Source of the DNA: Mycetocola zhadangensis | GTDB lineage: Bacteria; Actinomycetota; Actinomycetes; Actinomycetales; Microbacteriaceae | DNA length: 64,000 nt | Reading direction: 5' to 3' | Assembly: GCF_003668565.1 (NCBI RefSeq) | Contig: NZ_RCWJ01000001.1 | Location: forward strand, 558,001-622,000 | Part shown: one piece after another, positions 18,163-38,574 of the stretch | Layout: each line of letters opens with the position of its first letter | How positions within the stretch are numbered: the first letter of the stretch is position 1 | Translations under genes and position numbers: made by a program | The notes under the pieces: model-generated | The model's input: the letters and a program-made list of their open reading frames with translations, nothing else | Databases searched by the model: none | What the model was told of the DNA's origin: nothing

Positions 18163-19308
18163 TCAATTGCTCAAATAGCGGTCCACAGCTGCGGCCGAGT
18201 ACTCGCGGTCCACGACGAGGGCCGCGAGGCCGACGGTAGCTCCGTGTTGTCCGAGCGTGGCGAGCCTGACGCTCAGGTGCCGGGTTGCTCGAGGGAGGGA
18301 ACGAGGATAGAGCGTCTCGCGCACACCGGTCAGTAGGGGCGCTGACGAAAGCATGCCCCCGAGAATCACCTCGGCAGGGTTGAGGAGCGACACGACGGTC
18401 GCGACGACTCCGCCGATGACCCGGCCCGCCTCCTGCGTCAACCTTGCCGCGTCGGTGTCGCCTGCTGCGAGGTATTTGCCAACGTCAGAACCGGATGTGG
18501 CCGGCTTTCCCAGCTCTGTGAGCGCACGCGCGACGGCACCTCCGGAAGCGACAGCGGCGAGGCATCCGTAGGCGCCGCAATGGCACAGTAGGTGCTCGTA
18601 CCCGGCGATCTTGACGTGCCCGATGTCGCCGGCGCCGCCATCGGTACCCCTGTAAACGTTCCCGCCGAGGACGATTCCGGTGCCGATTCCTGACGACACC
18701 TTGATGAAGCACAGCGACCGGGAATCAGGGTAAGCGGTGCGCTGCTCACCCAGAGCGGCAGCGTCAGCGTCATTCCCGACGAGAACTGGAACCCCGAGCG
18801 CGTCGCGGAGGTGCTCGGGTACCGGGTAGGCGTCCCAGCCGGGCATGATGGGTGGCTGGCTCGGCCGACCCGTGTCAGGGTCGACTGGGCCTGGCACACT
18901 GATCCCGATGGCTGCTACCTGGGTGCGGTCGCCTTCGCCGCCGAGAAGCGACCGTGCACGCTCGGCTATTGCATTGAGGGCGACGTCGGGTCCATCGGCG
19001 ACCGCGACAGCGACACGCTCCTCTGCTCGCACGCGACCCGCTAAGTCTGTCAGGGCAACCGTCGTGTGGGTCGTCTCGACCGAGGCCGTCACAATGGTGG
19101 CGTGTGAGGTGTTGAATTCGAGCCGTCTGGATGGGCGGCCGCCCGTGACGCGTTCAGTCCCTCGCTCGACGATTAGCCCCACATCGAGCAATGCGTCGAT
19201 GCGTGATGAGACCGTCATACGGGACAGGCCCGTGAGGTTGAGTACGTCGCCGCGCGTAAGTTTGCCGTGCTCTCGAATGAGTGCCAGCACATCGCCTGGT
19301 CCGGGCAT
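18163..19308 (-). CDS. ROK-family transcriptional repressor of the sugar locus
   Basis: A 381-residue ROK regulator. The N-terminal winged helix-turn-helix (about residues 5-60, LTRGDVLNLTGLSRMTVSSR) precedes a sugar-kinase-like ROK domain containing the zinc-binding CHCGAYGCLAA near residue 240. ROK regulators of the NagC/XylR type bind a sugar or sugar phosphate and release DNA. It is divergent from the ABC sugar operon across a 134-bp gap with a promoter and an inverted repeat, so it is most likely that operon's repressor. The 200 bp between the tRNA-Gln terminator and this gene hold nothing I can identify. Confidence 0.9.
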   Translation of the reverse strand: MPGPGDVLALIREHGKLTRGDVLNLTGLSRMTVSSRIDALLDVGLIVERGTERVTGGRPSRRLEFNTSHATIVTASVETTHTTVALTDLAGRVRAEERVAVAVADGPDVALNAIAERARSLLGGEGDRTQVAAIGISVPGPVDPDTGRPSQPPIMPGWDAYPVPEHLRDALGVPVLVGNDADAAALGEQRTAYPDSRSLCFIKVSSGIGTGIVLGGNVYRGTDGGAGDIGHVKIAGYEHLLCHCGAYGCLAAVASGGAVARALTELGKPATSGSDVGKYLAAGDTDAARLTQEAGRVIGGVVATVVSLLNPAEVILGGMLSSAPLLTGVRETLYPRSLPRATRHLSVRLATLGQHGATVGLAALVVDREYSAAAVDRYLSN

Positions 19309-19344
19309 TCACCGGCCCCCCCTATCTCTTTGTTCTTATTATGC

Positions 19345-19373
19345 TTGACAGTTAGACAAAACGAACCTAACTT
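19345..19373 (+). promoter_or_regulatory. Promoter with embedded inverted repeat of the sugar operon
   Basis: A -35 box TTGACA (19345-19350) is followed by 17 bp and TAACTT (19368-19373) as -10. GTTAG (19351-19355) and CTAAC (19367-19371) form an exact inverted repeat across the spacer, which is AT-rich (ACAAAACGAAC). This is the expected place for a ROK repressor operator. The ribosome-binding site AAGGAGG of the downstream gene is at 19430-19436. Confidence 0.65.
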
Positions 19374-19442
19374 TTATACGTATCGGTCGTTCGACTGCGG
19401 CTGGCATTACCCTGCGGTACATCATGCTCAAGGAGGCGCGCG

Positions 19443-20840
19443 ATGAAGAGTCGATCCATAGCAGTGACAATGATGGCAGTGTCCGCGGTAGCAGCGGTCA
19501 CACTCGCCGGCTGTACATCGGAGCCTGAGAACGGTGAGACGTCTGAGGAACAAGGCATTACATTCTGGGTTCAGGAAGATCTGCCCGACCGCGTCGAGGC
19601 CACGGAGGCTATCGTCGCGGACTTCGAAGAGAAGTCAGGCATCGACGTGGAAGTTGTATCGGTTGCCGAGGACCAGTTCGCCCAGCTCATCACGTCGTCG
19701 GCCGCAGCAGGCGACCTCCCCGATGTCATCGGCGGCATCTCCCTCCCACAGGTGCGTACCCTCTCGGCGAGCGAACTCATCGACACCGAGGCCGTTTCAG
19801 CCGTCGTCGAGGACCTCGACCCGTCGACGTTCTCCGACAAGGCACTCGAGCTCACCGCCGACGGCGACGCACAGCTCGCTGTTCCCAGTGAGTCGTGGCT
19901 TCAGATGCTCCTGTACCGCACCGACCTCTTCGAGGCTGCTGGCCTCGACGCGCCGGACTCGTATGACAAGATCCTCGAGGCGGCAGAGGCGCTGAACTCT
20001 TCTGACCTTGCCGGTTTCGTTGGCGCGACCGCGCCAGGTGACGCGTTCACCGAGCAGACGTTCGAGCAGATCGCTCTGGGAAATGACTGCCAGCTCGTTG
20101 ACGAGGATGCCGAGATCACACTCGACTCCGAGCAGTGCGTCGAATCCTTTGACTTCTACGGCGACCTCATCTCGAACTACTCGGTTCCTGGTGCCCAGGA
20201 CGTCGATACGACTCGTGCCACGTACTTCGGTGGCCAGGCCGCAATGTTCATTTGGTCGAGCTTCGTCCTGGACGAGATGGCAGGCCTGCGCAACGACGCC
20301 AAACCCACGTGCCCGGAGTGCGCCGAAAACCCGGCGTTCCTCGCCGAGAACACCGGCGTCGTCACCTCGATTGCGGGGCCTGACTCGGACGAACCTGCGC
20401 AGTTTGGCGAGATCACGTCGTGGACCATCACTGACGGCGCGAATGCGACGGGCTCGCAGGAGTTCATCAAGTTCATGATGAGCGACGGCTACGAAGACTG
20501 GATCGCAATTGCACCGGAGGGCAAGGTGCCGGCTCGCTTCGGAACGCCGGATGAACCCACGCGCTACTCCGATGTGTGGGCCACGCTCCCTGCCGGAGTC
20601 GACACGAAGGCTCCTCTTTCGGACTTCTACTCGGCCGAGGTGCTCGATGCTGTTGCCGCCGGCCCGGCGAACATTGCACGGTGGGGCATCCCCCAGGGCC
20701 AGGGAGACCTACTGGGAGCACTTCAGGGCGAGCAGCCCGTCGCCAACGCTGTCAATGAAGTCACTCAGGGCGCCGAAGCCGAGCAGGCGGCGACCACGGC
20801 GGCCGAGACGGCCCGCGCCGTCCAGGAGTCGCTCCAGTGA
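19443..20840 (+). CDS. ABC transporter sugar-binding lipoprotein
   Basis: Extracytoplasmic solute-binding protein of the carbohydrate (CUT1) importer type, 465 residues. A lipoprotein signal peptide ends in LAGC with the lipidated Cys at residue 24, so it is tethered to the outer face of the membrane. The body has the SBP_bac_1 pattern, with an early ITFWVQEDLPDRVEATEAIV. A strong AAGGAGG site sits 6 nt before the ATG. It is the first gene of a tight operon with two permeases, two sugar dehydrogenases and two glycosidase-type genes. By position it corresponds to E. coli YcjN; the ligand is unknown. Confidence 0.9.
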   Translation: MKSRSIAVTMMAVSAVAAVTLAGCTSEPENGETSEEQGITFWVQEDLPDRVEATEAIVADFEEKSGIDVEVVSVAEDQFAQLITSSAAAGDLPDVIGGISLPQVRTLSASELIDTEAVSAVVEDLDPSTFSDKALELTADGDAQLAVPSESWLQMLLYRTDLFEAAGLDAPDSYDKILEAAEALNSSDLAGFVGATAPGDAFTEQTFEQIALGNDCQLVDEDAEITLDSEQCVESFDFYGDLISNYSVPGAQDVDTTRATYFGGQAAMFIWSSFVLDEMAGLRNDAKPTCPECAENPAFLAENTGVVTSIAGPDSDEPAQFGEITSWTITDGANATGSQEFIKFMMSDGYEDWIAIAPEGKVPARFGTPDEPTRYSDVWATLPAGVDTKAPLSDFYSAEVLDAVAAGPANIARWGIPQGQGDLLGALQGEQPVANAVNEVTQGAEAEQAATTAAETARAVQESLQ

Positions 20841-21874
20841 CTCAGCTATCAGGAGGGGCTGACCTTTCAGGTCGGCCCCCCATCATCCCGAATGACGGGC
20901 CTGATCTCAGGGCAGGCGCGGCGCCTGGCGCTCGTCGCGGCCGCTCGCGGCGCAACCGTGAGGAACGGCGCGCTGGTTTGCTGCTGATCGCACCGACCCT
21001 TGCCATCATCCTGATCGCGGTCGTCGTTCCCATCGTCTGGGCCATCGCACTTGCGTTCCAGAAAGTCCGACTCATAAACATCCGTGAGACCGGCCTGTTC
21101 GGCTCGTACACGTTCGAAAACTTCATCGAGGTGCTCACCTCGCCAGGCTTCCTGCAAGCACTGTGGACCACGATCGTCTACTCCGTATTCGGTACCGGTC
21201 TCGCCATCGGCATTGGGCTCATCGCCGCGCTCGCCCTGCGCAAGCCTTTCCGTGGGCGCGGAATCATCCGCGCGTCGCTCCTCCTTCCCTACGTCGCTCC
21301 CGTCGTCGCAGCCACTTTCGTCTGGTCGACGCTCCTCAACCCGCAGTACGGCCTGGTGAACTGGTTTGGTCAGACTGTACTGGGATGGTCAGAGCCGGTC
21401 GCCTTTCTCTCTCAGCGGTGGTTACCTGTGTCCCTCTTCGGACTCGAGATCCAGGTGCCCATCGCCCTCGTCACGGTGATCTGCTTCGAGGCGTGGCGAT
21501 CGTTCCCGTTCGCCTTCCTCTTTCTGACTGCCCGACTCCAGGCGGTGCCTGAATCGCTGGACGAGGCGGCCCGAATCGACGGGGCAACGCCGAGCCAACG
21601 ATTCGCGCACATCCTGTGGCCACAGCTCGTCCCGACCATTGCTGTCCTGACCGTGCTGCGCTTCATCTGGACGTTCAACAATTTCGACGACATCTATCTA
21701 CTGACTGGCGGGGGAGCGGGAACCCAAGTGGTTGCCGTACGCGTCTTCGACTACATGACAGCACGAGGTGATATCGGAGCTGCTGCGGCGCAGGCGCTCG
21801 TACTCGCGGCAATCCTCGCGATTCTCGTCACCGTTTACCTCAGACTCTTCGGACGACAGGAGGAACAGGCATGA
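20837..21874 (+). CDS. ABC sugar permease, MalF type
   Basis: Inner-membrane subunit of the importer, 345 residues, GTG start overlapping the binding-protein stop. A long basic cytoplasmic tail (residues 1-45) precedes six main hydrophobic segments. The EAA loop EAARIDGATPSQRFAHILWP lies near residues 241-260 and docks on the ATPase. By position it corresponds to YcjO. It is coupled to the second permease by an ATGA overlap. No ATPase gene is present in this locus. Confidence 0.92.
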   Translation: MTQLSGGADLSGRPPIIPNDGPDLRAGAAPGARRGRSRRNREERRAGLLLIAPTLAIILIAVVVPIVWAIALAFQKVRLINIRETGLFGSYTFENFIEVLTSPGFLQALWTTIVYSVFGTGLAIGIGLIAALALRKPFRGRGIIRASLLLPYVAPVVAATFVWSTLLNPQYGLVNWFGQTVLGWSEPVAFLSQRWLPVSLFGLEIQVPIALVTVICFEAWRSFPFAFLFLTARLQAVPESLDEAARIDGATPSQRFAHILWPQLVPTIAVLTVLRFIWTFNNFDDIYLLTGGGAGTQVVAVRVFDYMTARGDIGAAAAQALVLAAILAILVTVYLRLFGRQEEQA

Positions 21875-22791
21875 CCGCCACAGGTCTCGACAAGACGGCA
21901 CTTTCTCGTCCCGAGCGCCGGGGCTTCAACCGCGACCGCTTCGAGAATCGCCTTTTCAGGGTTTTGAAGCCAATCGTAATCGTCCTGCTGATGATCGTCG
22001 CCTTGTTCCCGTTCTACTACATGGCGCTGCTGAGCTTTCGGTCGCTGGACTCGCTGCTCCAGAACCCCGGGGCGCTGTGGATTTCGCTCGACGAATTCAA
22101 TCTATCCACGTACGTCGATGTGCTGACTCCCGTTTCGGAGGGCGGTCAAGGCTTCATCATCTTCATGCGTAATTCGCTGCTTGTGGCGCTCAGCACCGTG
22201 TTGCTCACGCTGCTCGTCACAATTCCAGGCGCCTACGCGGTGAGCCGCCTGCAGTTCTTCGGTCGTCGCCAGGTGTCCGGCCTCTTCCTTGCGGTGTATT
22301 TCTTCCCTGCCATCCTGCTCGCCGTGCCGCTCTTCGTCTTCTTCACGCAGGTCGGACTGCGCGGATCGCTGGTCGCGCTGATCATCGTGTATGTCTCGCA
22401 GGTCGCGGCTGTCTCGATCTACACTCTGCGGAACTATTTCGCGACGGTTCCGGTCTCGCTCGAGGAGGCCGCCGCGATCGACGGCTGTGGGCGCCTGCAA
22501 ACGATGTGGAAGATCAGTCTTCCACTTGCCATGCCTGCTGTCGTCTCCAACGGCTTGTTCATCTTCATGATTGCCTGGAACGAGTTCCTCTTCGCTCTGC
22601 TCTTCCTCGTGGAGAAGCGCGACTCGTGGACCGTCTCACTCGGCCTCTCGCAGCTCTCGGGAAGCATCGAGGTCCCGACGACGGTACTCATGGCTGGCTC
22701 CGTCATCATCACTTTGCCCATCATCGTTCTTTTCTTCGCTTCGGAGCGTCTCCTCGTTGGCGGGCTCACGGCTGGTGCCGAAAAGGGCTGA
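21871..22791 (+). CDS. ABC sugar permease, MalG type
   Basis: Second membrane subunit of the CUT1 importer, 306 residues with six hydrophobic segments. The EAA loop EEAAAIDGCGRLQTMWKISL lies near residues 197-216. ATGA overlap with the first permease. By position it corresponds to YcjP. The next gene begins 51 nt downstream behind its own AAGGAG, so expression of the enzymes may be set partly apart from the transporter. Confidence 0.92.
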   Translation: MTATGLDKTALSRPERRGFNRDRFENRLFRVLKPIVIVLLMIVALFPFYYMALLSFRSLDSLLQNPGALWISLDEFNLSTYVDVLTPVSEGGQGFIIFMRNSLLVALSTVLLTLLVTIPGAYAVSRLQFFGRRQVSGLFLAVYFFPAILLAVPLFVFFTQVGLRGSLVALIIVYVSQVAAVSIYTLRNYFATVPVSLEEAAAIDGCGRLQTMWKISLPLAMPAVVSNGLFIFMIAWNEFLFALLFLVEKRDSWTVSLGLSQLSGSIEVPTTVLMAGSVIITLPIIVLFFASERLLVGGLTAGAEKG

Positions 22792-22842
22792 TCCTTTCGG
22801 TTTCGCAACACAACCTTCGCAAAACGGAAGGAGTGCACCTCC

Positions 22843-23901
22843 GTGCCTCAAATCGTTCAGTTCACCGAGCCCGGCAACGTTGAACTCGTCGAGATCGATG
22901 CCGCGACACTCGTCCCAGGCACGGTACGGGTTGCCACGTGGTACTCGGGCATCTCCGCGGGCACTGAGCTCACCGCATACCGGGGAACAAACCCGTACCT
23001 CAACGCGACGTGGGACAGCGAGCGGCGGCTGTTCGTTCCCGGCCAGCCGAGCTTCGTATACCCGGTGCAAGGCTGGGGTTACTCGGAGGTCGGGCAGGTT
23101 GTGGAGGTCGCAGGCGACGTCTCGACGCTGGGAGTCGGCGACATCGTGCACGGAATCTGGGGACACCGCAGCGAAGCCGTGCTGCCGGCAGGTGCACTCG
23201 ACTGGCGACGGATGCCTCCTGGTGCCGACCCAATCCTCGGCACCTTCGCGCGTGTCGCCTCGATCGCGCTCAACGCCGTTCTCGCGGCCGACGTTCGGCT
23301 GGGTGAGCGTGTCGCGATCTTTGGTCAAGGGGTCATCGGTCTGCTCGCCACCCGGCTTGCAACATTGTCCGGGGCTCGCGTGCTCGCTGTCGACGCCGTC
23401 AAGGGGCGGCTCGAGAAGGCCGCGGCGTTCGGTGCGGTCGATACAGTCGATGCTCTCCGCGAGGGCGGCGCGGGTGCATACATCCGGGAAGCGACCGGTG
23501 GAGGGGCGGACAGCGCCATCGAGCTGTCAGGTATAGACCGGGCGTTACACGAGGCCGTACGGTCTGTCGTTGTCGAGGGCCTGGTCGCCGCATCCGGCTT
23601 CTATCAAGGCGGCGCGTCCAACCTGCGCCTCGGGGAAGAGTTCCACCACAATCGCGTGCGCCTCGTCGCGAGCCAGATTTCCGGCGTGCCAGTTGGCCTT
23701 GGGGGCAAATGGGACCAACCGCGGCTGGTTCGCACGGTCATGGAGCTCATGCTCTCCGGAGCGATTGACGCAGGTGAGCTGATCAGCGACGTCGTGGATG
23801 CCGTTGACGTCTCCGACATCTTCACGCGCCTGGACGCGGGTGACTCCGCGATCCTGCAAGCAATCCTTCGCTTCGACGCCGCGCCGGAGAACACACGATG
23901 A
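22843..23901 (+). CDS. MDR-type sugar dehydrogenase (YcjQ-like)
   Basis: A 352-residue member of the medium-chain dehydrogenase/reductase superfamily, GTG start with AAGGAG upstream. The nucleotide-binding motif GQGVIGLLATRLATLSGA lies near residues 166-183. The N-terminal half has the shortened catalytic region seen in YcjQ-like enzymes (SAGTELTAYRG, followed by PGQPSFVYPVQGWGYSEVG) and no cysteine cluster for structural zinc. E. coli YcjQ is reported to act as a D-guloside 3-dehydrogenase. Here the neighbours (binding protein, permeases, a YcjS-like enzyme and a GH13_18 enzyme) suggest a similar role. Family is firm; substrate is inferred. Confidence 0.75.
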   Translation: MPQIVQFTEPGNVELVEIDAATLVPGTVRVATWYSGISAGTELTAYRGTNPYLNATWDSERRLFVPGQPSFVYPVQGWGYSEVGQVVEVAGDVSTLGVGDIVHGIWGHRSEAVLPAGALDWRRMPPGADPILGTFARVASIALNAVLAADVRLGERVAIFGQGVIGLLATRLATLSGARVLAVDAVKGRLEKAAAFGAVDTVDALREGGAGAYIREATGGGADSAIELSGIDRALHEAVRSVVVEGLVAASGFYQGGASNLRLGEEFHHNRVRLVASQISGVPVGLGGKWDQPRLVRTVMELMLSGAIDAGELISDVVDAVDVSDIFTRLDAGDSAILQAILRFDAAPENTR

Positions 23902-24992
23902 TCGAACTGCCCGACTACCGGCCGCAGGTTCCTGCTTCCCGGCTGCGCGTCGGCCTCATCGGCGCAGGGGCGATCGCTGGGAGCGCACACCTCCCCGCGT
24001 ACGCCGCCTGGGGGATCCGGGTCACCGCCGTCGCTTCGCGGACACCGGGACCCGCGCAGGAACTGGCGACCCGCTTCGGAGTCGAAACTGTCTACGACAC
24101 GGTGACGGAACTCCTCAGAGATCCTGAGATCGAGGTCGTGGACCTCGCCACCGGGCCGACCGGGCGACTCGACCTCATCGAGGCCGCTGTCGTCAATGGC
24201 AAGCATGTCCTTGCACAGAAGCCGCTGAGCATCGAAGAGGCGGAGCTTCCCCGGTTGTTCGACATTCTCGGTGTCGCTCGCGAGCGCGGTCTGCGCGTTG
24301 CAGTGAACCAGAACGCTCGATGGGCGCCTGCCTGGCGGCTTGCCACCTTGCTCATCCGCGACGGCCGCATCGGAGACGTCGTCGGAGTGACGCATCTGCA
24401 CGACAAACCGTTGCCGCCACTCGCCGGCACTGCGTTCGATGAGATGCCCCACATGCTCCTGTCGGACTACCTCGTGCACTGGATCGACATCACCCGTTGC
24501 TGGCTCGAAGGCTCTCAGGTGACGTCGGTGACGGCACAGGACTCGCGCGTTCCCGGTCAACCTGAAGCGGCTCGCAACCCATGGCATGCGGCCCTGCAAT
24601 TGTCACTCTCAACGGGCGCCAGCGCCTCACTCCGCATCGTCGGAAACGCTCAGACCAATGCCGGCGGTTGCCCCTTTTGGATCCACGGCACCGAGGGAAC
24701 CATCCGAGGCAGCGTGCTGCTGGGCAGCGACTTCGTCGAACTCGACCGCGGCGAGACTCGCACCCGCTTCGCTCTAGAGGGCCAGTGGTTCACCGACGGT
24801 TTCGCTGGCGCGATGGGCGAACTCCTCAGTGCCATCGAGGACGACCGCGAACCGGAGAACTCTGCAGCTCACGTAGCCGCATCCGTACGAATCGGCCTCG
24901 CCGCGACAGCCTCCGCCCAGGCAAACGGTTCACCTGTGCACCCCGTCGACCTTGATCTCACCCCCGCAACCGTCCGGAGGAACGCCGCATGA
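23898..24992 (+). CDS. Gfo/Idh/MocA-family sugar dehydrogenase (YcjS-like)
   Basis: A 364-residue NAD(P)-dependent oxidoreductase. The N-terminal Rossmann motif GLIGAGAIAGSAHLPAY lies near residues 18-34, and the strand carrying the usual EKP motif reads VLAQKPLS near residue 110 (Gln in place of Glu). The C-terminal substrate domain is typical (HMLLSDYLVHWIDITR). Members oxidise hydroxyls of sugars and inositols, including C3 of glucosides in YcjS. ATGA overlaps on both sides lock it between the MDR dehydrogenase and the GH36-like gene, implying use in one pathway. Confidence 0.82.
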   Translation: MIELPDYRPQVPASRLRVGLIGAGAIAGSAHLPAYAAWGIRVTAVASRTPGPAQELATRFGVETVYDTVTELLRDPEIEVVDLATGPTGRLDLIEAAVVNGKHVLAQKPLSIEEAELPRLFDILGVARERGLRVAVNQNARWAPAWRLATLLIRDGRIGDVVGVTHLHDKPLPPLAGTAFDEMPHMLLSDYLVHWIDITRCWLEGSQVTSVTAQDSRVPGQPEAARNPWHAALQLSLSTGASASLRIVGNAQTNAGGCPFWIHGTEGTIRGSVLLGSDFVELDRGETRTRFALEGQWFTDGFAGAMGELLSAIEDDREPENSAAHVAASVRIGLAATASAQANGSPVHPVDLDLTPATVRRNAA

Positions 24993-26290
24993 ACATCATC
25001 GACGAGATACCGGTCGCTGCGGCGGCTGCGGTCTACACCGAGGGATGGCAAAGCTGGAGCCCCACGACCTGGTATCGGCAAAGCGACGCGCTCCAGCGTC
25101 CCGCCGAGGGGTGGCAGCACCTCATGCGGTTTCGCCCGGGAACCACCCTGCTCGAGCAAGGAGTGCAGGGAGAAGGCCTCCTCGTCGTCGACCCGGGAGA
25201 TGGTGCGGCGGCACGCGTCTACGGCACGCTGGACGCCTCGGTCGACGTGCCATCAATCCGTGCCGTGTGGCGCGGTGATCGCGTCATCGTGGAAACCGAC
25301 AAACCAGTCGAGCAATGGACAGTACCGGATGCATCCCCGGCTAAAGTCGAGAACCCGCACCCGGCGCTCACGAGCTTCGGAGACCGCTTCGGCAGGGCGA
25401 ACGGAGCCCGCATCGAGACATCTGCGCCTCAAGTGTGGTGCACGTGGTACCGCTACTTCGAGGACGTCACTGCGGCGGACGTCCTCGAGAATCTGCAGGC
25501 CATCGATGACCGGAGGCTGCCGGTCGACGTCGTCCAGATCGACGATGGGTGGAGCCTCGGCACGGGGGAGTGGACAAAGCCAAGCCCCCGGTTCGGGTCG
25601 CTCGCCGACTCCGTCGCGACGATCCGCGACAGCGGGCGACGGGCGGGCGTCTGGTTGGCGCCGTTCTCGGTTGGCTCGCACTCGGACCTCGCGCAGCGGC
25701 ATCCAAATTGGCTGACCGGGCCCGCAGGCTACAACTGGGGCGATGACCTCGTCGGCCTGGACCTCACGCACCCTGACGTGCGTACGTACCTCACGGAGGT
25801 GTTTTCCGGTCTGCGAGACCTCGGGGTCGACTACCTCAAACTCGATTTCCTGTACTCCGGCGCCGTACCTGCGCGCCGGTACAAGGAAGACGTCACGGCA
25901 ATAGCCGCATACCGTTCCGGGCTCGCACTCGTGCGCGAAATCATGGGTGAGGACGCCTACCTCTTGGGTTGCGGTGCTCCGATGCTTCCCAGTGTCGGTT
26001 TGGTCGACGCCATGCGTGTCTCACCGGACACATTTCACGAGGGTGGCGAGGACGGCTCCCAGGGGCTTCGAGGGCGGATGTCGCTTGAGGCCCGGGCTTG
26101 GCAACACGGACGCCTATGGACGACCGACCCCGATTGTCTCGTCGCCCGCCCCTCCTTCGCGCTCCGCGACGAGTGGGCCGACATTGTCCTTGCTGCGCCG
26201 GGTTTGCGCGGCTTCTCGGACCGGATCTCCGAACTTGACGATCACGGGCTGGATCTGGTCCGCCAACTGCTGAAGGAGCCAACGCGATGA
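24989..26290 (+). CDS. Compact GH36-like alpha-galactosidase
   Basis: A 433-residue glycoside hydrolase of the GH-D clan. The TIM-barrel core carries VQIDDGWSLGTGEW near residue 180. The nucleophile Asp is in DYLKLDFLYSG (about residues 280-290), and the putative acid/base Asp is in DAMRVSPDTFHEGG. Ordinary GH36 enzymes exceed 700 residues with a large beta-sandwich in front; here only about 140 residues precede the barrel. Retaining exo-alpha-galactosidase activity is likely but substrate is open. It overlaps its neighbours by ATGA on both sides. The N-terminal EGWQSWSP motif is often seen in GH36. Confidence 0.78.
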   Translation: MNIIDEIPVAAAAAVYTEGWQSWSPTTWYRQSDALQRPAEGWQHLMRFRPGTTLLEQGVQGEGLLVVDPGDGAAARVYGTLDASVDVPSIRAVWRGDRVIVETDKPVEQWTVPDASPAKVENPHPALTSFGDRFGRANGARIETSAPQVWCTWYRYFEDVTAADVLENLQAIDDRRLPVDVVQIDDGWSLGTGEWTKPSPRFGSLADSVATIRDSGRRAGVWLAPFSVGSHSDLAQRHPNWLTGPAGYNWGDDLVGLDLTHPDVRTYLTEVFSGLRDLGVDYLKLDFLYSGAVPARRYKEDVTAIAAYRSGLALVREIMGEDAYLLGCGAPMLPSVGLVDAMRVSPDTFHEGGEDGSQGLRGRMSLEARAWQHGRLWTTDPDCLVARPSFALRDEWADIVLAAPGLRGFSDRISELDDHGLDLVRQLLKEPTR

Positions 26291-27984
26291 CTCATGTCGA
26301 CTTCGACCACTTGAGGAGCCGGCTCAGCCCGCTCGTCGCTGAGCTTTACGCGGGGCGCGCCGACGAGGTGCTCGATGCACTCCTCGATCTCGCACATCGC
26401 TGGGCTCCGGAGCTGGGCCCTGCGGACAGGGAACGCCCCGACGAGGGTTCTGCCTACCTCATCACCTATGGCGATGCGTTCCGGCGAGAGGGTGAGACAC
26501 CACTGCATACGCTCGCATCGGTCCTCAGGGATCACGTCCGGGATGCCGTCACCGACGTCCATCTGCTCCCGATCTACCCGTGGACCTCAGACGACGGGTT
26601 CGGGGTCGTAGACCACCGGGAGGTCAACCCGGAGCTCGGCTCGTGGGACGACATTGCGGACCTCCGCGCAGACCATGCGCTGGCGCTCGACTTCGTTGCC
26701 AACCACCTTTCCACCTCGAGCCCATGGTTCCAAGGATGGCTCGCAGGCGATCCGCGGTACGCCGGCTACTTCCTCGAGCCCGGTCATGACTTCGACATCT
26801 CCCGTGTCGTGCGCCCCCGGATGGCACCGCTCGTCCACGAGTACGAGCGCCCAGACGGGACGGTCGCCCGGGCATGGACGACGTTCGGACCTGACCAGGT
26901 GGATGTCGACCCGAGGACTCCAGCAGTGCTCCTGGAGCTTACCGACGTTCTGCTCGGATACTTGTCGCGCGGCGCAACCACGGTGCGCCTCGACGCCATT
27001 GGCTTCCTGTGGAAAGAGTCCGGCAGCACCGGCATCCACCTGCGACAAACCCATGCCATCATTCGACTGTGGCGGATCCTCGTCGATGAACTCGCGCCTG
27101 GAACGCTGCTCTTGACCGAGACGAATGTTCCGCACGCGGATAACATCACGTACTTCGGCAACGGGTCGGACGAGGCACACATGGTTTACCAATTCGCGCT
27201 GCCTCCGCTGGTGCTGCACGCATTCGTGACCGGCAGCGCCACGGCGCTCTCGGACTGGGCAAGCACGATCGGCCCGGTGAGCGACACTGCCACCTGGTTC
27301 AATTTCCTCGCGAGTCACGACGGAATCGGAATTCGTCCCACCCGAGGCCTCTTGACCGACGAGGACCGTGCTCTCCTGGTCGAGCGTACGGTCGCCCGCG
27401 GGGGGCGGGTGTCGATGGCCCGGCATCCGGATGGTACGGAGGACGTGTACGAGCTCAACACCAATTTTCTGGACGCATTGGTGGACCCGAACGATGAGGA
27501 CCCGGATGCAGCTGCTGTCGTTCGGGGACTGGCGGCGCATGCCATTCTCTTGTCACTCATCGGCGTTCCCGCGATCTACTACCACTCGCTCCTTGGCTCG
27601 GGCCAGGATCGTGCCGGTATGGAGGCGAGCGACATCTCACGGCGGATCAACCGCGAAGTGCTCGACGCCGACCGGCTCGCGAAAGAACTCGAGTCGTCGC
27701 CGCGTCGATCGGGGATGCTCGAAGGACTGAGAACCTTGCTTGAGCTGCGTCGAGAGTTGCCCGCGTTCTCACCCTTCGCCGATCAACAAATCGAAGTTCT
27801 TGACCCCCGGGTCTTCGTCGTCCGCCGTGCAGCGGGAACGCCGAATGAGGTGATCGCCGCTATCAATGTCAGCGATGAGACCGTCTCGTTGCCGTCATTG
27901 GCGGGAACGGACGTGATCTCGGGCCGTTCGTCGAACGGTATCGAGCTGAAACCGTTCGGATACGTCTGGCTGATACCGCAGTAG
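26287..27984 (+). CDS. GH13_18-type glycoside phosphorylase
   Basis: A 565-residue GH13 enzyme of the sucrose phosphorylase subfamily. Subfamily motifs are ITYGDAFRREGETPLHTL near residue 59, HLLPIYPWTSDDGFGVVD near residue 90, nucleophile Asp in VRLDAIGFLWKES and acid/base Glu in LLTETNVPHADNI. FLASHDGIG near residue 340 carries the transition-state Asp. The arrangement resembles E. coli YcjM, reported as glucosylglycerate phosphorylase, more than sucrose phosphorylase. It probably splits an alpha-glucoside with phosphate to glucose-1-phosphate in the cytoplasm. It is the last gene of the sugar operon. Acceptor specificity cannot be fixed by eye. Confidence 0.8.
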   Translation: MTHVDFDHLRSRLSPLVAELYAGRADEVLDALLDLAHRWAPELGPADRERPDEGSAYLITYGDAFRREGETPLHTLASVLRDHVRDAVTDVHLLPIYPWTSDDGFGVVDHREVNPELGSWDDIADLRADHALALDFVANHLSTSSPWFQGWLAGDPRYAGYFLEPGHDFDISRVVRPRMAPLVHEYERPDGTVARAWTTFGPDQVDVDPRTPAVLLELTDVLLGYLSRGATTVRLDAIGFLWKESGSTGIHLRQTHAIIRLWRILVDELAPGTLLLTETNVPHADNITYFGNGSDEAHMVYQFALPPLVLHAFVTGSATALSDWASTIGPVSDTATWFNFLASHDGIGIRPTRGLLTDEDRALLVERTVARGGRVSMARHPDGTEDVYELNTNFLDALVDPNDEDPDAAAVVRGLAAHAILLSLIGVPAIYYHSLLGSGQDRAGMEASDISRRINREVLDADRLAKELESSPRRSGMLEGLRTLLELRRELPAFSPFADQQIEVLDPRVFVVRRAAGTPNEVIAAINVSDETVSLPSLAGTDVISGRSSNGIELKPFGYVWLIPQ

Positions 27985-28362: not shown

Positions 28363-29868
28363 TTAGCCAAACGGGACGGCGCCGACAAGCACGCCGACAA
28401 GCAGCATCACTAAAGAGACCACGCATGCTCGCCAGAGCACCTTCTTGTGGTGGTCGCCGAGGTTGACGCCTGCGAGAGAGACGAGCAGAAGAATGGCTGG
28501 TACCAGAGGGCTTTGCAGGTGGACGGGCTGACCGATGATCGACGCGCGGGCCATCTCCACCGGGTCGATGCCGTAGGTCGCCGCACTCTCGGCCAGCACA
28601 GGAAGAATACCGAAGTAAAACGCGTCGTTTGACATGAAGAAGGTCATCGGAATAGAGAGCACTCCGGTGATGACAGCCAGGTATTCACCCATCGACGCCG
28701 GCACGACGTTCACAACCCAGTCGGCCATGGCCGTAACCATCCCAGTACCGTTCAGCACACCGACCAGGACGCCCGCGGCGAGCACCATGGAAACGACGCC
28801 GACGATGCTCGGGGCGTGAGCGACTATCTCGTCTGCTTGGCTGCGGAGCTTGGGGAAGTTGACCATGAGGGCCACGCCCGTGCCGACCATGAAGATGTAA
28901 GCCAGCGGCATGACATCGAGCACGAGCAGCACCATAACCGCCACGGTCAGCCCGAAGTTCACCCAGATCAGCTTGGGCCGCAGTGTCGGCCGATCCGCGC
29001 TCAGCATTGTGTCGGCCATCATCGTGTCGTGGTCGTCGACCTCGAGCAACTTCTGCTCGGCCAGGGCTATGGGCCCTGCCGGAAGGCGCTGCCCCGGGCG
29101 CACAGTCACGATGCCGGTTGTGGAAAGCGTTGCCGCTGCTCCGGGCCTGACGTCTGTGCCGCGCACGACTCGGTTGCCGCCGAAGAGCCCGCGCCAGAAA
29201 CCCGGCGACGCTGTCGGTGTGGCGTCCGCCAGTGCAGCCGGCGAATACTCGAGCGAGCCGATGCGCTTGCGCTCGGCCAGACCCAGGAACCAGGCGAACG
29301 CCAGCGCAATGATGAGGCCCGTCGCGAGTGAGGGCAGCATCGGTACGAAGATGTCGGTCGGAGAAACGCCCAGCGCCGAAGCGGCCCGAACGGTGGGGCC
29401 GCCCCACGGCACGATGTTGAGTGTGCCGTTCATAAGGCCCGCAACACAGGTGAGCACGACTGGGCTCATTCCCAGACGCAGGTAAATCGGCAGCATCGCG
29501 GACGTCGTGATGATGAACGTCGTCGAACCGTCGCCGTCTAGTGACACCGCGCCGGCCAGGATCGCCGTGCCCAGAACGACCTTCGCCGGGTCGTTGCCCA
29601 GGAAGCGGGTGATGGAACGGATGAGGGGATCGAACAGCCCGACGTCGATCATGATGCCGAAGAACATGATCGCGAACATGAGCAGCGCCGCTGTTGGAGC
29701 CAGATCACCGATCGACTCGATGATCATGTCGCCGAGACCCAGACCGGCGCCGGCGAAGAGGCCAAAGATCGTGGGAACGAGGATAAGAGCGACCATCGGC
29801 GTGAGCCGTCTGGTCATGATGAGCACCATGAAGGTGAGGATCATGGTGAATCCGAGAACGACGAGCAC
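28363..29868 (-). CDS. CitMHS-family metal-citrate/proton symporter
   Basis: Imports citrate complexed with a divalent metal. The GTG at 29868 is chosen because AAAGGAG lies 5 nt upstream and VLVVLGFTMILTFMVLIM is the usual start of the family; the frame stays open further upstream without support. The 501-residue product has about 12 hydrophobic segments and an internal hydrophilic loop (around residues 220-310) as in CitM/CitH. Typical motifs are LTPMVALILVPTIFGL near residue 21 and DGDGSTTFIIT near residue 116. It is divergent from a CitA/CitB-type two-component system, which presumably induces it. Confidence 0.88.
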   Translation of the reverse strand: MLVVLGFTMILTFMVLIMTRRLTPMVALILVPTIFGLFAGAGLGLGDMIIESIGDLAPTAALLMFAIMFFGIMIDVGLFDPLIRSITRFLGNDPAKVVLGTAILAGAVSLDGDGSTTFIITTSAMLPIYLRLGMSPVVLTCVAGLMNGTLNIVPWGGPTVRAASALGVSPTDIFVPMLPSLATGLIIALAFAWFLGLAERKRIGSLEYSPAALADATPTASPGFWRGLFGGNRVVRGTDVRPGAAATLSTTGIVTVRPGQRLPAGPIALAEQKLLEVDDHDTMMADTMLSADRPTLRPKLIWVNFGLTVAVMVLLVLDVMPLAYIFMVGTGVALMVNFPKLRSQADEIVAHAPSIVGVVSMVLAAGVLVGVLNGTGMVTAMADWVVNVVPASMGEYLAVITGVLSIPMTFFMSNDAFYFGILPVLAESAATYGIDPVEMARASIIGQPVHLQSPLVPAILLLVSLAGVNLGDHHKKVLWRACVVSLVMLLVGVLVGAVPFG

Positions 29869-30000
29869 ATCGACTCCTTTGTCTTTGTTTAGAGGTGCGG
29901 CCAGGTCAGGAAGTCCCGCTCGGGGGTCGCTGCCGAGGCGTATGACGATGGATGTGAAGCTTAGGCAGACCGAAGGGGCGGCAACCCGTATCGCGCTTTC

Positions 30001-30018
30001 TTGCACGTATTGCGCGTA
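30001..30018. promoter_or_regulatory. Tandem 9-bp repeat between citrate carrier and sensor kinase
   Basis: TTGCACGTA (30001-30009) is followed directly by TTGCGCGTA (30010-30018), one mismatch. It lies in the 195-bp divergent gap between the carrier and the kinase, where a CitB/DcuR-type regulator would be expected to bind. No other sign of function. Confidence 0.4.
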
Positions 30019-30063
30019 TCGTTAGTTGTGCGCATTTTGCTCATGCGTCGATCGGAGGCAGAG

Positions 30064-31737
30064 ATGCGGTTCTCGACGCAGATGCTCCTGTGGCAGCTCG
30101 CATGCGTTACCGGCATCGTCGCGATCTGCACCGGCGTCTTCGTCTCTATCGGCGTTCAACAGTTACGGGCTGAGGCCGAAACTTCAGCACTGTCGATCGC
30201 ACGCACGGTCGCCGCCGACTCCGATGCGCGCGCCGGCGTCGCCCGAGCTTCTGCTGACATCGGTACGCCGTCGAATGCGAGTCTTCGTGGAGGACCGCTC
30301 TCCGTTCTCGCGGCGGCGGCCGAGGCCAACACCGGCGCGCTGTTCATCGTGATCACGGACGATCACGGGATACGCCTCGCACACCCCGACCCGCAAATGC
30401 TCGGGGCGGAGGTGAGCACAGGATTTGCCGAGGCGCTGGCCGGACGTGAGACGGTGTCGTGGGAATCGGGCACTCTCGGCGAGTCTGCTCGCGCCAAGGT
30501 TCCTGTCCGCGACCCCGATACCGATGAGCCGGTGGGCGAGGTGAGCGTCGGGTTCGCCCCGAGCAGTGTCTTCAAAGAGCTTCCCCTCCTCCTTGGGGGC
30601 GTTGCGCTGGCCGCCACAGCTGCCCTTGCCCTCGGCGCGGTGGTCTCGATCGTCCTCAGGCGCCGCCTCGAGCGCCTCACCCTCGGCCTTCAGCCCGAGG
30701 AGATGTCCGCCCTGATACAGAATCAGGCAGCGGTGCTCGACGGGGTAGGCGATGGGGTGCTCGCCTGGGGACCGGACGGCGTGGTGACCGTCGCCAACAC
30801 GACGGCCGCGCGATTGCTCGGCATTTCCGACCTGGTTGGGCGCCGCATCCACGACCTCGCGCTGCCTGGTCCGGTGATCGCGGCACTGGCCGGTGAGCCG
30901 AAGAGCCCGTCCAGGGGGCGACGGGGATCGGACGCGGATGAACCAGTCGTGCTCGCCGACCATGTCGTTTTCATCGATACCCACCCGGTGTCCCGCCCGA
31001 ATCGGGACCTCGGCATGATCGCGGTGATTCGCGACCGTACCGACGTCGTGACCCTCACGGATCGCCTGGAATCCGTTGCGTCGATGACCGACGCGCTTCG
31101 GGTGCAGCGCCACGAGTTTGCGAACCGCCTGCATGTCGCGGCCGGGCTGATGGACGCGGGCCGCGTGCCCGACGCACGAGACTATCTCGACGACGTGCTG
31201 GATGCGTCACGCTCCGCTGATATTCCGGCAGCCGGTGGGCATCTGACCGAGCCATTTCTTTTGTCACTGGTGGAAGCCAAGTCCGCGCAGGCCGGTGAGC
31301 GTGGCGTGCTGCTGACGGTGGGTTCGGACTCGCTGGTGCGCGGAGTCGTCTCTGCGCCCGAAGAGGTGGCCACGGTGCTCGCCAACCTCGTCGACAACGC
31401 AGTCAGAGCGGCCGTCTACGGGAAGCAGCCGCGTTGGGTTGACGTGGAACTGCTCGACGACGGCGACACACTCGGTATGACCGTGTCCGACTCCGGGCAG
31501 GGTGTGCCCGACGGTGCCCAGGTGTTCGGTGAGATGCGGCGAAAAGAGCTGGACCCGGACGCTGTGCATGGGCGGGGCATTGGTTTGCCGCTCGTCCGCG
31601 ACGTCGCGGCGCGTCTCGGCGGCGAGGTGTGGCTGGCCGACGCTGGTGGCCGCGAAGGAAGCGGTGCCGTGTTCTGCGCCCGTCTGCCCGGGGTCATGCG
31701 GCCGCCGGCCCATCCAGAACGAGGAGAAGACCGATGA
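30064..31737 (+). CDS. CitA/DcuS-type sensor histidine kinase
   Basis: Membrane sensor, probably for citrate or another di/tricarboxylate. The ATG at 30064 is chosen because GGAGG ends 5 nt before it; the frame is open for 21 codons upstream. The 557-residue product has TM1 (about 7-29), a periplasmic Cache-like sensor (about 30-170), TM2 (about 177-200), a PAS domain (about 220-320) and a kinase core. The phospho-acceptor His350 is in QRHEFANRLHVAAG, the CitA/DcuS H-box, and the N-box is NLVDNAVRAA. It is coupled to its response regulator (ATGA-type overlap) and divergent from a citrate carrier. Confidence 0.92.
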   Translation: MRFSTQMLLWQLACVTGIVAICTGVFVSIGVQQLRAEAETSALSIARTVAADSDARAGVARASADIGTPSNASLRGGPLSVLAAAAEANTGALFIVITDDHGIRLAHPDPQMLGAEVSTGFAEALAGRETVSWESGTLGESARAKVPVRDPDTDEPVGEVSVGFAPSSVFKELPLLLGGVALAATAALALGAVVSIVLRRRLERLTLGLQPEEMSALIQNQAAVLDGVGDGVLAWGPDGVVTVANTTAARLLGISDLVGRRIHDLALPGPVIAALAGEPKSPSRGRRGSDADEPVVLADHVVFIDTHPVSRPNRDLGMIAVIRDRTDVVTLTDRLESVASMTDALRVQRHEFANRLHVAAGLMDAGRVPDARDYLDDVLDASRSADIPAAGGHLTEPFLLSLVEAKSAQAGERGVLLTVGSDSLVRGVVSAPEEVATVLANLVDNAVRAAVYGKQPRWVDVELLDDGDTLGMTVSDSGQGVPDGAQVFGEMRRKELDPDAVHGRGIGLPLVRDVAARLGGEVWLADAGGREGSGAVFCARLPGVMRPPAHPERGEDR

Positions 31738-32390
31738 CCGAAACAATTTCCGTGCTCATTGTCGACGACGACTTCCACGTCGGCGGACTCCATCGAGATA
31801 TCGTGGCTGCGCGCCCCGGCTACACCGCCCTCGAGCCTGTTCGAGGAGTGCGCGCCGCGCGCGCGGCGGTGCGCGATTTACAGCCTGATCTCGTCATCTG
31901 CGACGTCTATCTTCCCGACGGCGACGGGATCGCCTTCGTCGCCGAGATCGACGTTGACGCGATTGTGATCAGTGCGGCGTCAGATGGTGCGACCGTCCGC
32001 CGTGCGCTCCGCGCAGGCGCGTTGGACTACCTCATCAAACCGTTTGAACCCACACGGCTGAGCGACCAGCTGGAGGCATACCGCCGGTTCCGCAACCTTG
32101 CTCCGGAAGACCGCCAGCTCGACCAGGCGGCTATCGAAAAGGCTCAGCGGGTGATGCACGGTCGGGTTGGTGGAGTGGCATCCGTGTCACGTTCCACAAC
32201 CGAGAAGCTGATTATCGACTTGCTGCAGGACGGTGAAACGTCCGCGAGCGCGATTGCCGGCCGCGCCGGTCTGTCTCGGGCGACGGCGCAGAGGCACCTC
32301 GCCGTCTTGGCAACCCGCGGTGACGTGGAAGTGACCCTCCGCTACGGATCGACGGGCCGTCCCGAACACCGATACAGCGTCCGAGGCTGA
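31734..32390 (+). CDS. CitB/DcuR-type response regulator
   Basis: Partner of the adjacent sensor kinase, activating citrate uptake genes when phosphorylated. The ATG at 31734 overlaps the kinase stop and has GAGGAG upstream. The 218-residue product has a receiver domain (about 6-118) with acidic pocket DDD at residues 11-13, phospho-acceptor Asp57 in ICDVYLPDGDG and Lys in YLIKPF. A C-terminal winged helix (about 150-218, ASAIAGRAGLSRATAQRHL) follows. Likely target is the promoter in the 29869-30063 gap. Confidence 0.92.
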   Translation: MTETISVLIVDDDFHVGGLHRDIVAARPGYTALEPVRGVRAARAAVRDLQPDLVICDVYLPDGDGIAFVAEIDVDAIVISAASDGATVRRALRAGALDYLIKPFEPTRLSDQLEAYRRFRNLAPEDRQLDQAAIEKAQRVMHGRVGGVASVSRSTTEKLIIDLLQDGETSASAIAGRAGLSRATAQRHLAVLATRGDVEVTLRYGSTGRPEHRYSVRG

Positions 32391-34627: not shown

Positions 34628-35142
34628 GCAAGCTTTCACCTCCGGGCTCGAGCACAGAGCAAGACCCGCGCAACAGCTTCGTTACCGAAGAATCGGTATA
34701 CGGGACGCTCCTGGTCAGCGGAATGATTGTCGTCTCAGGGACTTACGGCGCCTCCTCATGGGCGACCTTCCTCAGCGTTCTTGGAACGGTGATCGTGTTC
34801 TGGGTGGCGCATGTGTATGCCGGCACGGTGGCGGGACACGCCGTGATGGAGGGAAAGGACATAGCGCTTGGGACGGCGTTCAAGCGGTCTCTTCGTCGTT
34901 CGGTGGGCTTTTTGACCTCTGCGTTGATTCCCTGTGTCCTCCTGTTGATCGGTGCCCTTCGGGTCATCCCGGACGCCCTGGCGATCTGGCTGGCGCTCTG
35001 GGTGGGCGTGGTGATTCTCGGCGCGCTCGGCTACCGCGCTTTCGCGTTGCGTGGCAGCGCGTGGACTGTCCGCATTCTCGGCAGCCTGGGAACGGCAACA
35101 CTCGGCATCGCGATGATCCTGCTCAAGGCGCTTATTCACTAG
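34624..35142 (+). CDS. Polytopic membrane protein, function unknown
   Basis: 172 residues, polar N-terminus (1-22) followed by hydrophobic segments at about 28-45, 48-68, 95-115, 118-138 and 150-170. The pattern YGTLLVSGMIVVSG and HVYAGTVAGH is seen in small actinobacterial membrane proteins of unknown role. It starts at ATG 34624 overlapping the stop of the small frame upstream. No conserved catalytic residues were noticed. It stands alone between DUF2252 (opposite strand) and a PPOX-fold gene. Confidence 0.6.
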   Translation: MSKLSPPGSSTEQDPRNSFVTEESVYGTLLVSGMIVVSGTYGASSWATFLSVLGTVIVFWVAHVYAGTVAGHAVMEGKDIALGTAFKRSLRRSVGFLTSALIPCVLLLIGALRVIPDALAIWLALWVGVVILGALGYRAFALRGSAWTVRILGSLGTATLGIAMILLKALIH

Positions 35143-35277
35143 CTTGAGACGGAATGACGTGACGAGGTCGTGTGTGGACGGCGTCGCCGTGGCTCCTGGC
35201 GGACATCGTGTGCCGATGAAACTTCGCTGACCAATGGCTTGTTCGGGCATCACTCGCACCGCGGATATAGTCGGGGA

Positions 35278-35757
35278 ATGGCTCGAACGATCGCAACCTC
35301 AACCCACGTCGGCCGCGACGAAGTTCTTGACTTCGTCCGACCACGCCACCGCATGCTCCTCGCCACAACTCGTGCGGACGGCCGACCACAAATGTCTCCG
35401 GTCACCGGAGGCGTCGACGCCGACGGCCGGATCGTGATTTCCACATACCCGGCCCGCAGCAAGACCCGCAATGCCGACCGACATTCTCACACTTCGGTCG
35501 TGGTCTTCTCCGACGAATGGGACGGCCCGTGGGTGCAGGTCGACGGAGATGCTGAGGTGCTGCACATGCCTGAAGCCGCTGACGGACTGGTCGACTACTT
35601 TCGGTGCATCGCTGGCGAGCACCCGGACTGGGATGAGTACCGCGCGGCCATGGCCATTCAGGACAAGTCTTTGATTCGGATCACACCCACACGGTGGGGT
35701 CCGATCGCCACAGGTGGTTTCCCGCCCGAGGTTGCTTCGCGGCTTGACGAGCAGTAG
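35278..35757 (+). CDS. Pyridoxamine-phosphate-oxidase-fold protein (F420 or FMN class)
   Basis: A 159-residue split-barrel protein. The N-terminal region FVRPRHRMLLATTRADGRPQ (about residues 19-38) and the strand RIVISTYPARSKTRNADRHS (about 51-70) match the PPOX/F420-dependent group common in actinobacteria. The ATG at 35278 (MARTIATSTHVG) is chosen over an upstream in-frame start because GGGGA precedes it and the family starts here. The likely role is reduction of, or binding to, a flavin-type cofactor; substrate is unknown. Confidence 0.8.
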   Translation: MARTIATSTHVGRDEVLDFVRPRHRMLLATTRADGRPQMSPVTGGVDADGRIVISTYPARSKTRNADRHSHTSVVVFSDEWDGPWVQVDGDAEVLHMPEAADGLVDYFRCIAGEHPDWDEYRAAMAIQDKSLIRITPTRWGPIATGGFPPEVASRLDEQ

Positions 35758-36053
35758 CTCGGGAGCTGGCGGGCCGGGCATCAGAGAGCAGCGAATGACC
35801 GATCAGGACGACCACTCCGTTAGAACGACATCGCTTCCCGAACAACGAGCCGGCCGCCGAGGACGTCGAATCGCTGATCGAGATGATGCAGCGAATAAGC
35901 AGTCATCAGCCAAGCTATGAATTCTAAGCACGATCGGGTTCGGCACGTACCACTACAAGTACGACAGCGCGTGTGCAGAGCAGACGCGTAGCCAACCGCA
36001 CGGCCGCCCCGCCCGGTGTGCCGTGAGCGGCGCGATTCGCTCCGGGAGACAGT

Positions 36054-37505: not shown

Positions 37506-37522
37506 GCCACTATTACATCAAA

Positions 37523-37561
37523 TGGTCCACTCTTGCGGTCGGTAGGCGGACCTTTTGACCA
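37523..37561. promoter_or_regulatory. Repeated GGTC/GACC half-sites between MocR gene and exporter
   Basis: TGGTCC (37523-37528) and GGACC (37548-37552) form an inverted pair, and GGTC (37537-37540) and GACC (37557-37560) a second, offset one. Several half-sites within 40 bp of a divergent MocR promoter are typical of its binding region. Not a perfect palindrome. Confidence 0.45.
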
Positions 37562-37588
37562 GTCCGCATGCGCATCAGACTCGATGCC

Positions 37589-38428: not shown

Positions 38429-38472
38429 ATACCTAGCTCACTACCCATCCTTGTCAGAACAGGAGAGAACAA

Positions 38473-38574
38473 ATGAACCGCACAATCATGCAGGACGACG
38501 CCACGCAGGGGACGGATCGGAGTACTCAGACAAACAGTCAGGGCAGCACTGAGCGCGCGAAGGAAGGCGTCTGA
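38473..38574 (+). CDS. Tiny ORF (33 aa) coupled to the metallo-beta-lactamase gene
   Basis: ATG at 38473 with GGAGAG spaced 5 nt upstream, 34 codons, and a TGA whose last base is the first base of the next ATG (TGATG). The product is hydrophilic, Gln/Thr/Ser/Asp-rich (MNRTIMQDDATQGTDR at its start), with no hydrophobic or cysteine motif. Spacing and overlap support translation. It could be a small protein or simply a leader that delivers ribosomes to the enzyme gene; the downstream gene also has AAGGAAGG inside this ORF. Confidence 0.5.
   Translation: MNRTIMQDDATQGTDRSTQTNSQGSTERAKEGV

Follow-up and report, generated by a model that had tools for sequence, protein, structure and literature searches.

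A relative of the Escherichia coli ycj operon in Mycetocola zhadangensis, probably for glycosides with a glucosylglycerate unit

What does a bacterium take up and degrade with an operon that looks, by its sequence, like a relative of the E. coli ycj operon in which the epimerase is missing and an alpha-galactosidase stands in its place? The locus that raises this question consists of eight genes (18163-27984) in a stretch of 64,000 nucleotides of Mycetocola zhadangensis DNA, here called the window (contig 1, 558001-622000, of a genome of 3.32 Mb). The question has a wider bearing, in that for the E. coli ycj operon, too, the substrate is unsettled, going by PMC11543891. An earlier note on this DNA had read the eight genes as a regulator of the ROK family, the binding protein and two permeases of an ABC importer, a dehydrogenase of the MDR family (here MDR), one of the Gfo/Idh/MocA family (here GFO), a GH36-like gene and a GH13_18 phosphorylase, and this description was confirmed, since all eight genes are open and intact and their Pfam matches agree with the families named. 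On the evidence set out below, the locus is very probably an operon for the catabolism of a glucosylglycerate (GG) unit, and its substrate is probably an imported glycoside in which this unit bears a further outer sugar.

The argument for the GG unit begins with the last gene, which encodes the GH13_18 phosphorylase (26287..27984, forward strand; Pfam Alpha-amylase) and whose product aligns with E. coli YcjM over 560 columns at 41% identity. Strict glucosylglycerate phosphorylases (GH13_18, EC 2.4.1.352) are described in PMC7178133 by two sequence marks, the motif (T/S)ETN, which lies at the tip of beta-strand 5, and a loop-A Glu in the place of the Gln of most other clades. The window protein bears both (TETN at 277 and YELN at 388, the loop-A position being set by alignment to YcjM and from the B. 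adolescentis enzyme) and is predicted to have the same activity. Both marks were present in 52 of 52 GH13 rows scoring at least 300 bits, duplicates of some genomes included, and in 0 of the 27 rows below this score. The view of the locus as ycj-like, with a phosphorylase of the YcjM kind, was borne out, and phosphorolysis of GG by the predicted phosphorylase is the best-supported step of the scheme that we propose below; the genome also encodes a glycerate kinase, outside the operon. The possibility of a sucrose phosphorylase was ruled out by the two marks together with a TIGR03852 match well under its cut-off (166 of 334 bits); a sucrose-active GH13_18 relative, XpGP from Xylanimonas, is described in PMC11009771. 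A search of PHROGs gave no match for the GH13 protein.

The operon recurs in other genomes, and it is there that the evidence for the GG unit is strongest. We scanned public genomes with a GH36 alignment and took the best 80 of 424 loci, among which 33 hold MDR (counted at 200 bits or more) and come from Microbacterium, Naasia, Cellulomonas, Isoptericola, Cellulosimicrobium, Nocardioides, Microlunatus, Ornithinimicrobium, Georgenia and Arthrobacter. All eight genes are present in 24 of the 33, and three more phosphorylase-bearing loci (L065, L077 and L078 in our numbering) are cut by contig ends; such recurrence argues against a chance gene set. GFO is found in 32 of these loci, GH13_18 in 27 and GH63 in the remaining six (one or two genes), none having both of the latter and none neither. 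The genes of the six loci match the PF22422 type (mannosylglycerate-hydrolase-like, GH63), and that of L098 matches PDB 5ohc, entered in our table as 'Hydrolase', at E 8e-172; we take this entry to be the GgH of M. hassiacum. According to PMC6608630, GgH hydrolyses mannosylglycerate almost tenfold less well than glucosylglycerate, and glucosylglycerol not at all. Because GH13_18 and GH63 replace each other and have one known substrate in common, the GG unit is likely to be the common intermediate, and this exchange of two unrelated enzymes provides what appears to be the strongest evidence for it. In the MDR tree most of the GH63 loci branch early, so that there may have been a single exchange; beyond the 33, L174 and L175 also have GH63. 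The Arthrobacter loci L089 and L091 each contain two different GH63 genes (of about 394 and of 420-455 amino acids, about 30% identical). For the second copy of L091 the closest protein is 2z07 of Thermus (252 bits); in L089 the shorter copy lies far from both 5ohc and 2z07 (96 and 94 bits).

The other 47 of the best 80 loci were without MDR, GH13_18 and GH63 in the stretch read, and many of them adjoin a different ABC importer; one of the 47, L080, has GFO and is cut by a contig end. By GH36/GH13 identity the nearest relatives of the window operon are in Microbacterium yannicii (77/82%) and M. salsuginis (76/83%), and L057 holds GFO and GH36. The operon is rare in samples of its own family, in which a GH36 match above 600 bits was found in 2 of 298 other genomes and a GH13 match above 600 bits in 1 of 149 others, and no GH36 match at E 1e-20 was obtained in five of five members of the genus. 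Two loci had further genes of interest: in L085 (4240-5169 and 11776-13065) the operon region contains a ROK-type gene of opposite strand, and GH36 is followed by a gene for a PhyH-type dioxygenase; in L080 (2469-3341) the protein encoded after GH36 resembles, by eye only, the PhyH-type one of L085.

The GH36 gene (24989..26290, forward strand; Pfam Melibiase), noticed earlier as an alpha-galactosidase-like addition to the ycj set, deserved this name. Its best PDB match is the Thermotoga maritima alpha-galactosidase 1zy9 (E 9e-65), and all nine of the catalytic and sugar-contact residues of TmGalA listed in PMC5132143 are identical in it (W190, Y191, D220, D221, W257, K325, D327, R383 and D387, numbered with an offset of 12, the sole one of 11-13 that gives Asp at both 327 and 387). 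The window protein differs from the T. maritima enzyme in length (433 amino acids, PDB chains 564-575), and the alignment with 1zy9 covers only residues 65-461. Taken together, the conserved active site and galactose contacts point to a putative alpha-galactosidase. A relative from the same family contains a tandem GH36 pair adjoining an ABC importer (L059, 8332-11192).

What this gene may be doing in a ycj-like operon is suggested by the company that it keeps. None of the 33 loci above, which had been selected by GH36, has a YcjR-type gene at 150 bits. In a sample of the phylum selected by MDR instead (E 1e-50 or better, 18 places in 15 of 396 genomes), the 13 loci reaching 200 bits divide into four with GH36 only, eight with an intact YcjR only, one with neither and none with both (Fisher p 0.007, ignoring relatedness). 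In this count L177 was placed by hand as GH36-only, its GH36 match (165 bits) and its YcjR fragment (97 bits) being under the cut-offs; the fragment corresponds to about the first 101 of 261 residues and lies directly before the GH36 gene. The 13 do not include five places whose MDR match was weaker, two of them with YcjR and without GH36 (L186 and L189) and three with neither (L187, L188 and L190). Another sample, of one actinobacterial family, had the locus in 13 of 200 genomes (G371 of the phylum sample included), and all 13 loci (L176 and L209-L220) hold ROK, binding protein, two permeases, MDR, a YcjR-type gene, GH63 and a debranching-enzyme-like (GDE_N_bis, here GDE-like) gene, have no GH36, and carry next to ROK a Gfo gene different from the window GFO. 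A sample of the class of G747 was positive in 6 of 66 genomes, its two new loci L221 and L222 showing only MDR and a weak YcjS-like match. For the YcjR-type protein of L212 the closest solved relative is 6wn6, '3-keto-D-glucoside 4-epimerase' (158 bits, the next scoring 91), and with an epimerase so clearly the best relative we disfavoured for L212 the alternative of a beta-eliminase, as in the Agrobacterium pathway of PMC10628242. Among the operons in which a GG-splitting enzyme is predicted, an intact epimerase goes with a gluco-type remover (GH65 or GDE-like, the specificity of the latter being presumed), except in L148 of Nonomuraea, where the stretch read has none, and the lack of an intact epimerase goes with an alpha-galactosidase-like gene.

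From the gene content of related loci, MDR, GFO and GH36 look like a cassette that can be separated from the rest. In L191, whose genome belongs to the genus of the L058 genome, ROK, binding protein, both permeases and GH13 are present at 64-79% identity without any of the three; L060 has the same core with a debranching-enzyme-like gene and without the dehydrogenases; and Meiothermus taiwanensis has the importer with a GH63-type and a GH13_18 gene, again without the dehydrogenases. From these three the importer and a GG-splitting enzyme appear to be the base to which the cassette is an addition.

The two dehydrogenases are less easily placed. MDR (22843..23901, forward strand; ADH_zinc_N) is 29% identical to YcjQ over 320 columns and falls in the same broad family, in a different clade of the tree. 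Classical zinc-dependent MDR alcohol dehydrogenases carry cysteine zinc ligands; MDR has no cysteine at all and is for this reason not a classical zinc dehydrogenase. GFO (23898..24992, forward strand; Pfam GFO_IDH_MocA) forms a clade of its own and matches YcjS at only 24.5% over 159 columns (48 bits). Of the 11 other Gfo genes in the genome, nine outscore it against YcjS, although the low-complexity filter differed between the two comparisons, and we therefore ruled out that GFO is the YcjS orthologue. Its motifs QKP and DYLxHW, which we take to contain the catalytic Lys and the catalytic Asp/His, are each kept in 35 of 35 rows; the residue before the Lys is usually Glu in Gfo/Idh/MocA proteins and is Gln here. 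Its closest solved relatives include levoglucosan dehydrogenase and further dehydrogenases of sugars. The NCBIfam matches to inositol 2-dehydrogenase (GFO, top match, 89 of 355 bits) and scyllo-inosose dehydrogenase (MDR, second match, 47 of 450 bits) are far under their cut-offs, and the predicted structures are confident, with pLDDT values of 88.5 (GFO) and 87.6 (MDR). The claim that the core ycj set is kept thus held for the counterparts of YcjM, YcjN, YcjO and YcjP and failed for YcjS, MDR standing in the YcjQ family in another clade, and the suggested tie to 3-keto-sugar chemistry is plausible. A relative of MDR (about 35%) forms the terminal part of a long gene with the annotation glycosyltransferase, surrounded by further glycosyltransferase genes, on plasmids of Agrobacterium larrymoorei and Rhizobium (L150, 4823-8059; L155, 5820-9059); this may be a fusion that supplies a surface glycan with a keto- or inverted sugar.

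Placing these genes into one pathway gives the following scheme, in which the sequence facts are those above and the substrate, the order of steps and the stereochemistry are our reading of them. The ABC importer would take up the glycoside under the control of ROK, as family membership suggests. MDR would then oxidise C3 of the outer sugar, which by analogy with YcjQ would be a gulosyl residue, and GFO would reduce the 3-keto group again with inversion. Gulose and galactose are C3 epimers (PMC4011222). A guloside that is oxidised at C3, epimerised at C4 and reduced at C3 becomes a glucoside, and one that skips the C4 step becomes a galactoside; because there is no YcjR epimerase here, C4 would be left untouched and the product would be galactosyl. 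GH36 would remove this alpha-galactosyl residue, and GH13_18 would phosphorolyse the remaining GG to glucose 1-phosphate and glycerate, the latter passing to glycerate kinase. By the same logic YcjQ, YcjR and YcjS of E. coli would yield a glucosyl residue, to be removed by YcjT/YcjU before YcjM acts. We regard the full stereochemical scheme, built on sequence and analogy, as tentative and somewhat short of an even chance. The more general proposal to which it leads is that bacteria import an undescribed class of compounds, GG with an outer alpha-D-gulosyl residue, and process them by two routes, through a C4 epimerase to a glucoside or through C3 inversion to a galactoside and an alpha-galactosidase; this we consider doubtful, but if it were true it would also give the E. 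coli ycj operon a named physiological substrate.

Several observations speak against parts of this scheme. A search of the literature found no gulosyl-GG compound, and we know of none. The choice of sugar for MDR would rest on analogy, with 29% identity between MDR and YcjQ, both dehydrogenases distant from YcjQ and YcjS, and structure models of GFO and MDR that give superfamily-level matches only; moreover, YcjQ is termed a D-glucoside dehydrogenase in PMC11543891. The top PDB match of the GH13 protein, 7xdq, is a glucosylglycerol phosphorylase. The exclusion between YcjR and GH36 weakens to Fisher p of about 0.05 if L177 is counted as having both, and this locus is one contig of an 87%-complete genome, lies on a long branch and has a GH36 outside the clade of the window GH36 (quick tree, SH-aLRT 100, midpoint root, with a long-branch warning). 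The 37 GH36 rows fall together in the MDR tree, as a single group among the YcjR rows (one change, support 83/88), and the exclusion amounts to one or two events in evolution. Of the eight YcjR-only loci, all but L176 (L178-L182, L184 and L185, seven loci) have no GH13_18 or GH63 in the 4-19.5 kb read, only L181 among the seven having an importer of the window type, so that MDR with YcjR also serves other substrates and is not everywhere tied to GG. L177 and Meiothermus L153 hold both GH63 and GH13_18, GFO is missing from L079 and L177, and L093, of the GH36 type, also has a GDE-like gene.

Other explanations read the same genes differently. The transporter could take several hexosyl-glycerates, with GG passing directly to GH13_18, gulosyl- or galactosyl-glycerate passing to MDR, GFO and GH36, and no outer sugar on GG. 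The separability of the cassette from importer and GH13 in L191 agrees with this, as does the Nonomuraea locus L148, whose MDR, YcjR, YcjS-like and GH63 genes come with no GDE, GH65 or GH36 gene above the cut-offs in 19 kb and would thus require no remover of an outer sugar. Yet a two-sugar substrate is what predicts the GDE-like hydrolase found besides GH63 in 13 of 13 loci of the YcjR-bearing family, and the GDE and GH13 genes of L060 in a locus without dehydrogenases, and we hold the arrangement to be unlikely on balance. MDR and GFO might instead act on the glucosyl residue itself, for example by inverting an allosyl to a glucosyl residue or by forming a temporary 3-keto group, and so feed GH13_18, with GH36 as a separate alpha-galactosidase for another imported sugar. 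The presence of levoglucosan and other sugar dehydrogenases among the closest solved relatives of GFO is in keeping with this, as are the 47 GH36 loci without MDR, many of them beside an ABC importer. An independent GH36 would, however, leave unexplained why an intact YcjR and GH36 were not found together, and why, in the MDR-based phylum sample, where GH36 played no part in the selection, GH36 is present in all three loci whose GFO reaches 250 bits (the window, L174 and L175); this, too, we think rather improbable.

A third role for GH36 would be to act before the dehydrogenases, on a polyol galactoside such as galactinol, GFO and MDR then oxidising the released inositol or sugar. The below-cut-off inositol matches of both dehydrogenases are what recommends it, and against it Pfam finds no other inositol-pathway gene among the eight, while the GH13_18/GH63 partner and the swap of GH36 with the YcjR type would go unexplained; we consider it very unlikely. 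The reading of the earlier note, with floridoside or glucosylglycerol as examples of a substrate split by phosphorolysis after or beside 3-keto conversion, fared worst. GH36 could in principle cleave floridoside, and GH13_18 includes glucosylglycerol phosphorylases, one of which is the 7xdq mentioned above. The loop A of glucosylglycerol phosphorylase nevertheless reads VGAIYQ according to PMC7178133, where the window protein has Glu in addition to its TETN, and MhGgH, of the family of the replacing GH63 genes, was without hydrolysis of glucosylglycerol in PMC6608630. The GG marks and the GH63 replacement disfavour floridoside, glucosylglycerol and sucrose alike, and this reading is in our judgement highly improbable.

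The remaining genes of the operon fit an importer and its regulator. The ROK-family regulator (18163..19308, reverse strand; Pfam ROK 161 bits and an N-terminal helix-turn-helix) is divergent from the others, and its gene is kept in most related operons. The sugar-binding lipoprotein (19443..20840, forward strand; Pfam SBP_bac_1, lipobox judged by eye) has YcjN as its closest solved relative by sequence (PDB 8vqk, E 3e-36; 27.5% over 378 columns), and the two permeases, both on the forward strand with BPD_transp_1 domains, are 32% identical to YcjO (permease 1, 20837..21874) and 37% identical to YcjP (permease 2, 21871..22791). There is no ATPase gene among the eight, so that the importer ATPase would come from elsewhere. 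As had been noted, the genes mostly overlap: from binding protein to GH13, five of six junctions are 4-base overlaps, the sixth being a gap of 51 bases between permease 2 and MDR.

A tRNA-Gln gene lies 231 bases from the end of the ROK gene and borders a variable region (window 17931 to about 35000-40000). The tRNA-Gln and the two genes preceding it are conserved in five of five genus relatives; the operon and its four following genes were not found in any of the five in the 9-17 kb read past the tRNA-Gln, and similarity to the window resumes at about 35-44 kb in three of them. No repeat of the tRNA-Gln end was found in the rest of the window, which leaves a variable site rather than a demonstrated mobile element. 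Next to the operon (28363-32390), a CitMHS citrate-type transporter gene faces genes for a cache-domain sensor kinase and a response regulator, likely a set for citrate or dicarboxylate sensing and uptake.

The swaps described here, of GH13_18 with GH63 and of YcjR plus a GDE-like or GH65 gene with GH36, narrow the substrate to what is probably a GG core with a modifiable outer sugar, and so reduce the substrate question to a short list of compounds and enzyme assays. They also raise the prospect that two sugar dehydrogenases may jointly invert C3 of a glycoside, which could find use in rare-sugar chemistry. By title and abstract we found no description of this gene combination or operon in the literature, in agreement with the earlier suggestion that the combination may be undescribed.

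Among known systems the closest comparison is with E. coli, whose ycj operon comprises ycjM-U, the pseudogene ycjV, ompG and ycjW, and whose records name YcjQ a D-guloside 3-dehydrogenase, YcjR a 3-dehydro-D-guloside 4-epimerase and YcjS a D-glucoside 3-dehydrogenase. The window shares with it the YcjM-type phosphorylase, the YcjN/O/P-type importer, an MDR of the YcjQ family and a Gfo/Idh/MocA dehydrogenase. It differs in having no YcjR, YcjT (GH65) or YcjU, for which, as claimed earlier, only chance-level matches occur among the eight genes (a YcjR-type query finds a single place elsewhere in the genome, on contig 3, at 31% and 68 bits), in a Gfo that is not orthologous to YcjS, in the added GH36 and in its ROK regulator. 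In E. coli, YcjW is a predicted LacI-type regulator, and a ligand screen of the binding protein found none, both going by PMC11543891. The ycj-type operon on a plasmid of Pseudalkalibacillus hwajinpoensis (Bacillota, L149) resembles the window in having importer, MDR, Gfo and GH13_18 in one run, and departs from it in having YcjR, GH65 and beta-phosphoglucomutase and no GH36; YcjQ, YcjR, YcjS, GH65 and GH13_18 are all present both there and in E. coli. The family of L176 and L209-L220 stands nearer, with ROK, binding protein, permeases and MDR at 44-63% identity to those of the window, and in it a YcjR-type epimerase, a GDE-like hydrolase and GH63 replace GH36 and GH13_18, with a different Gfo.

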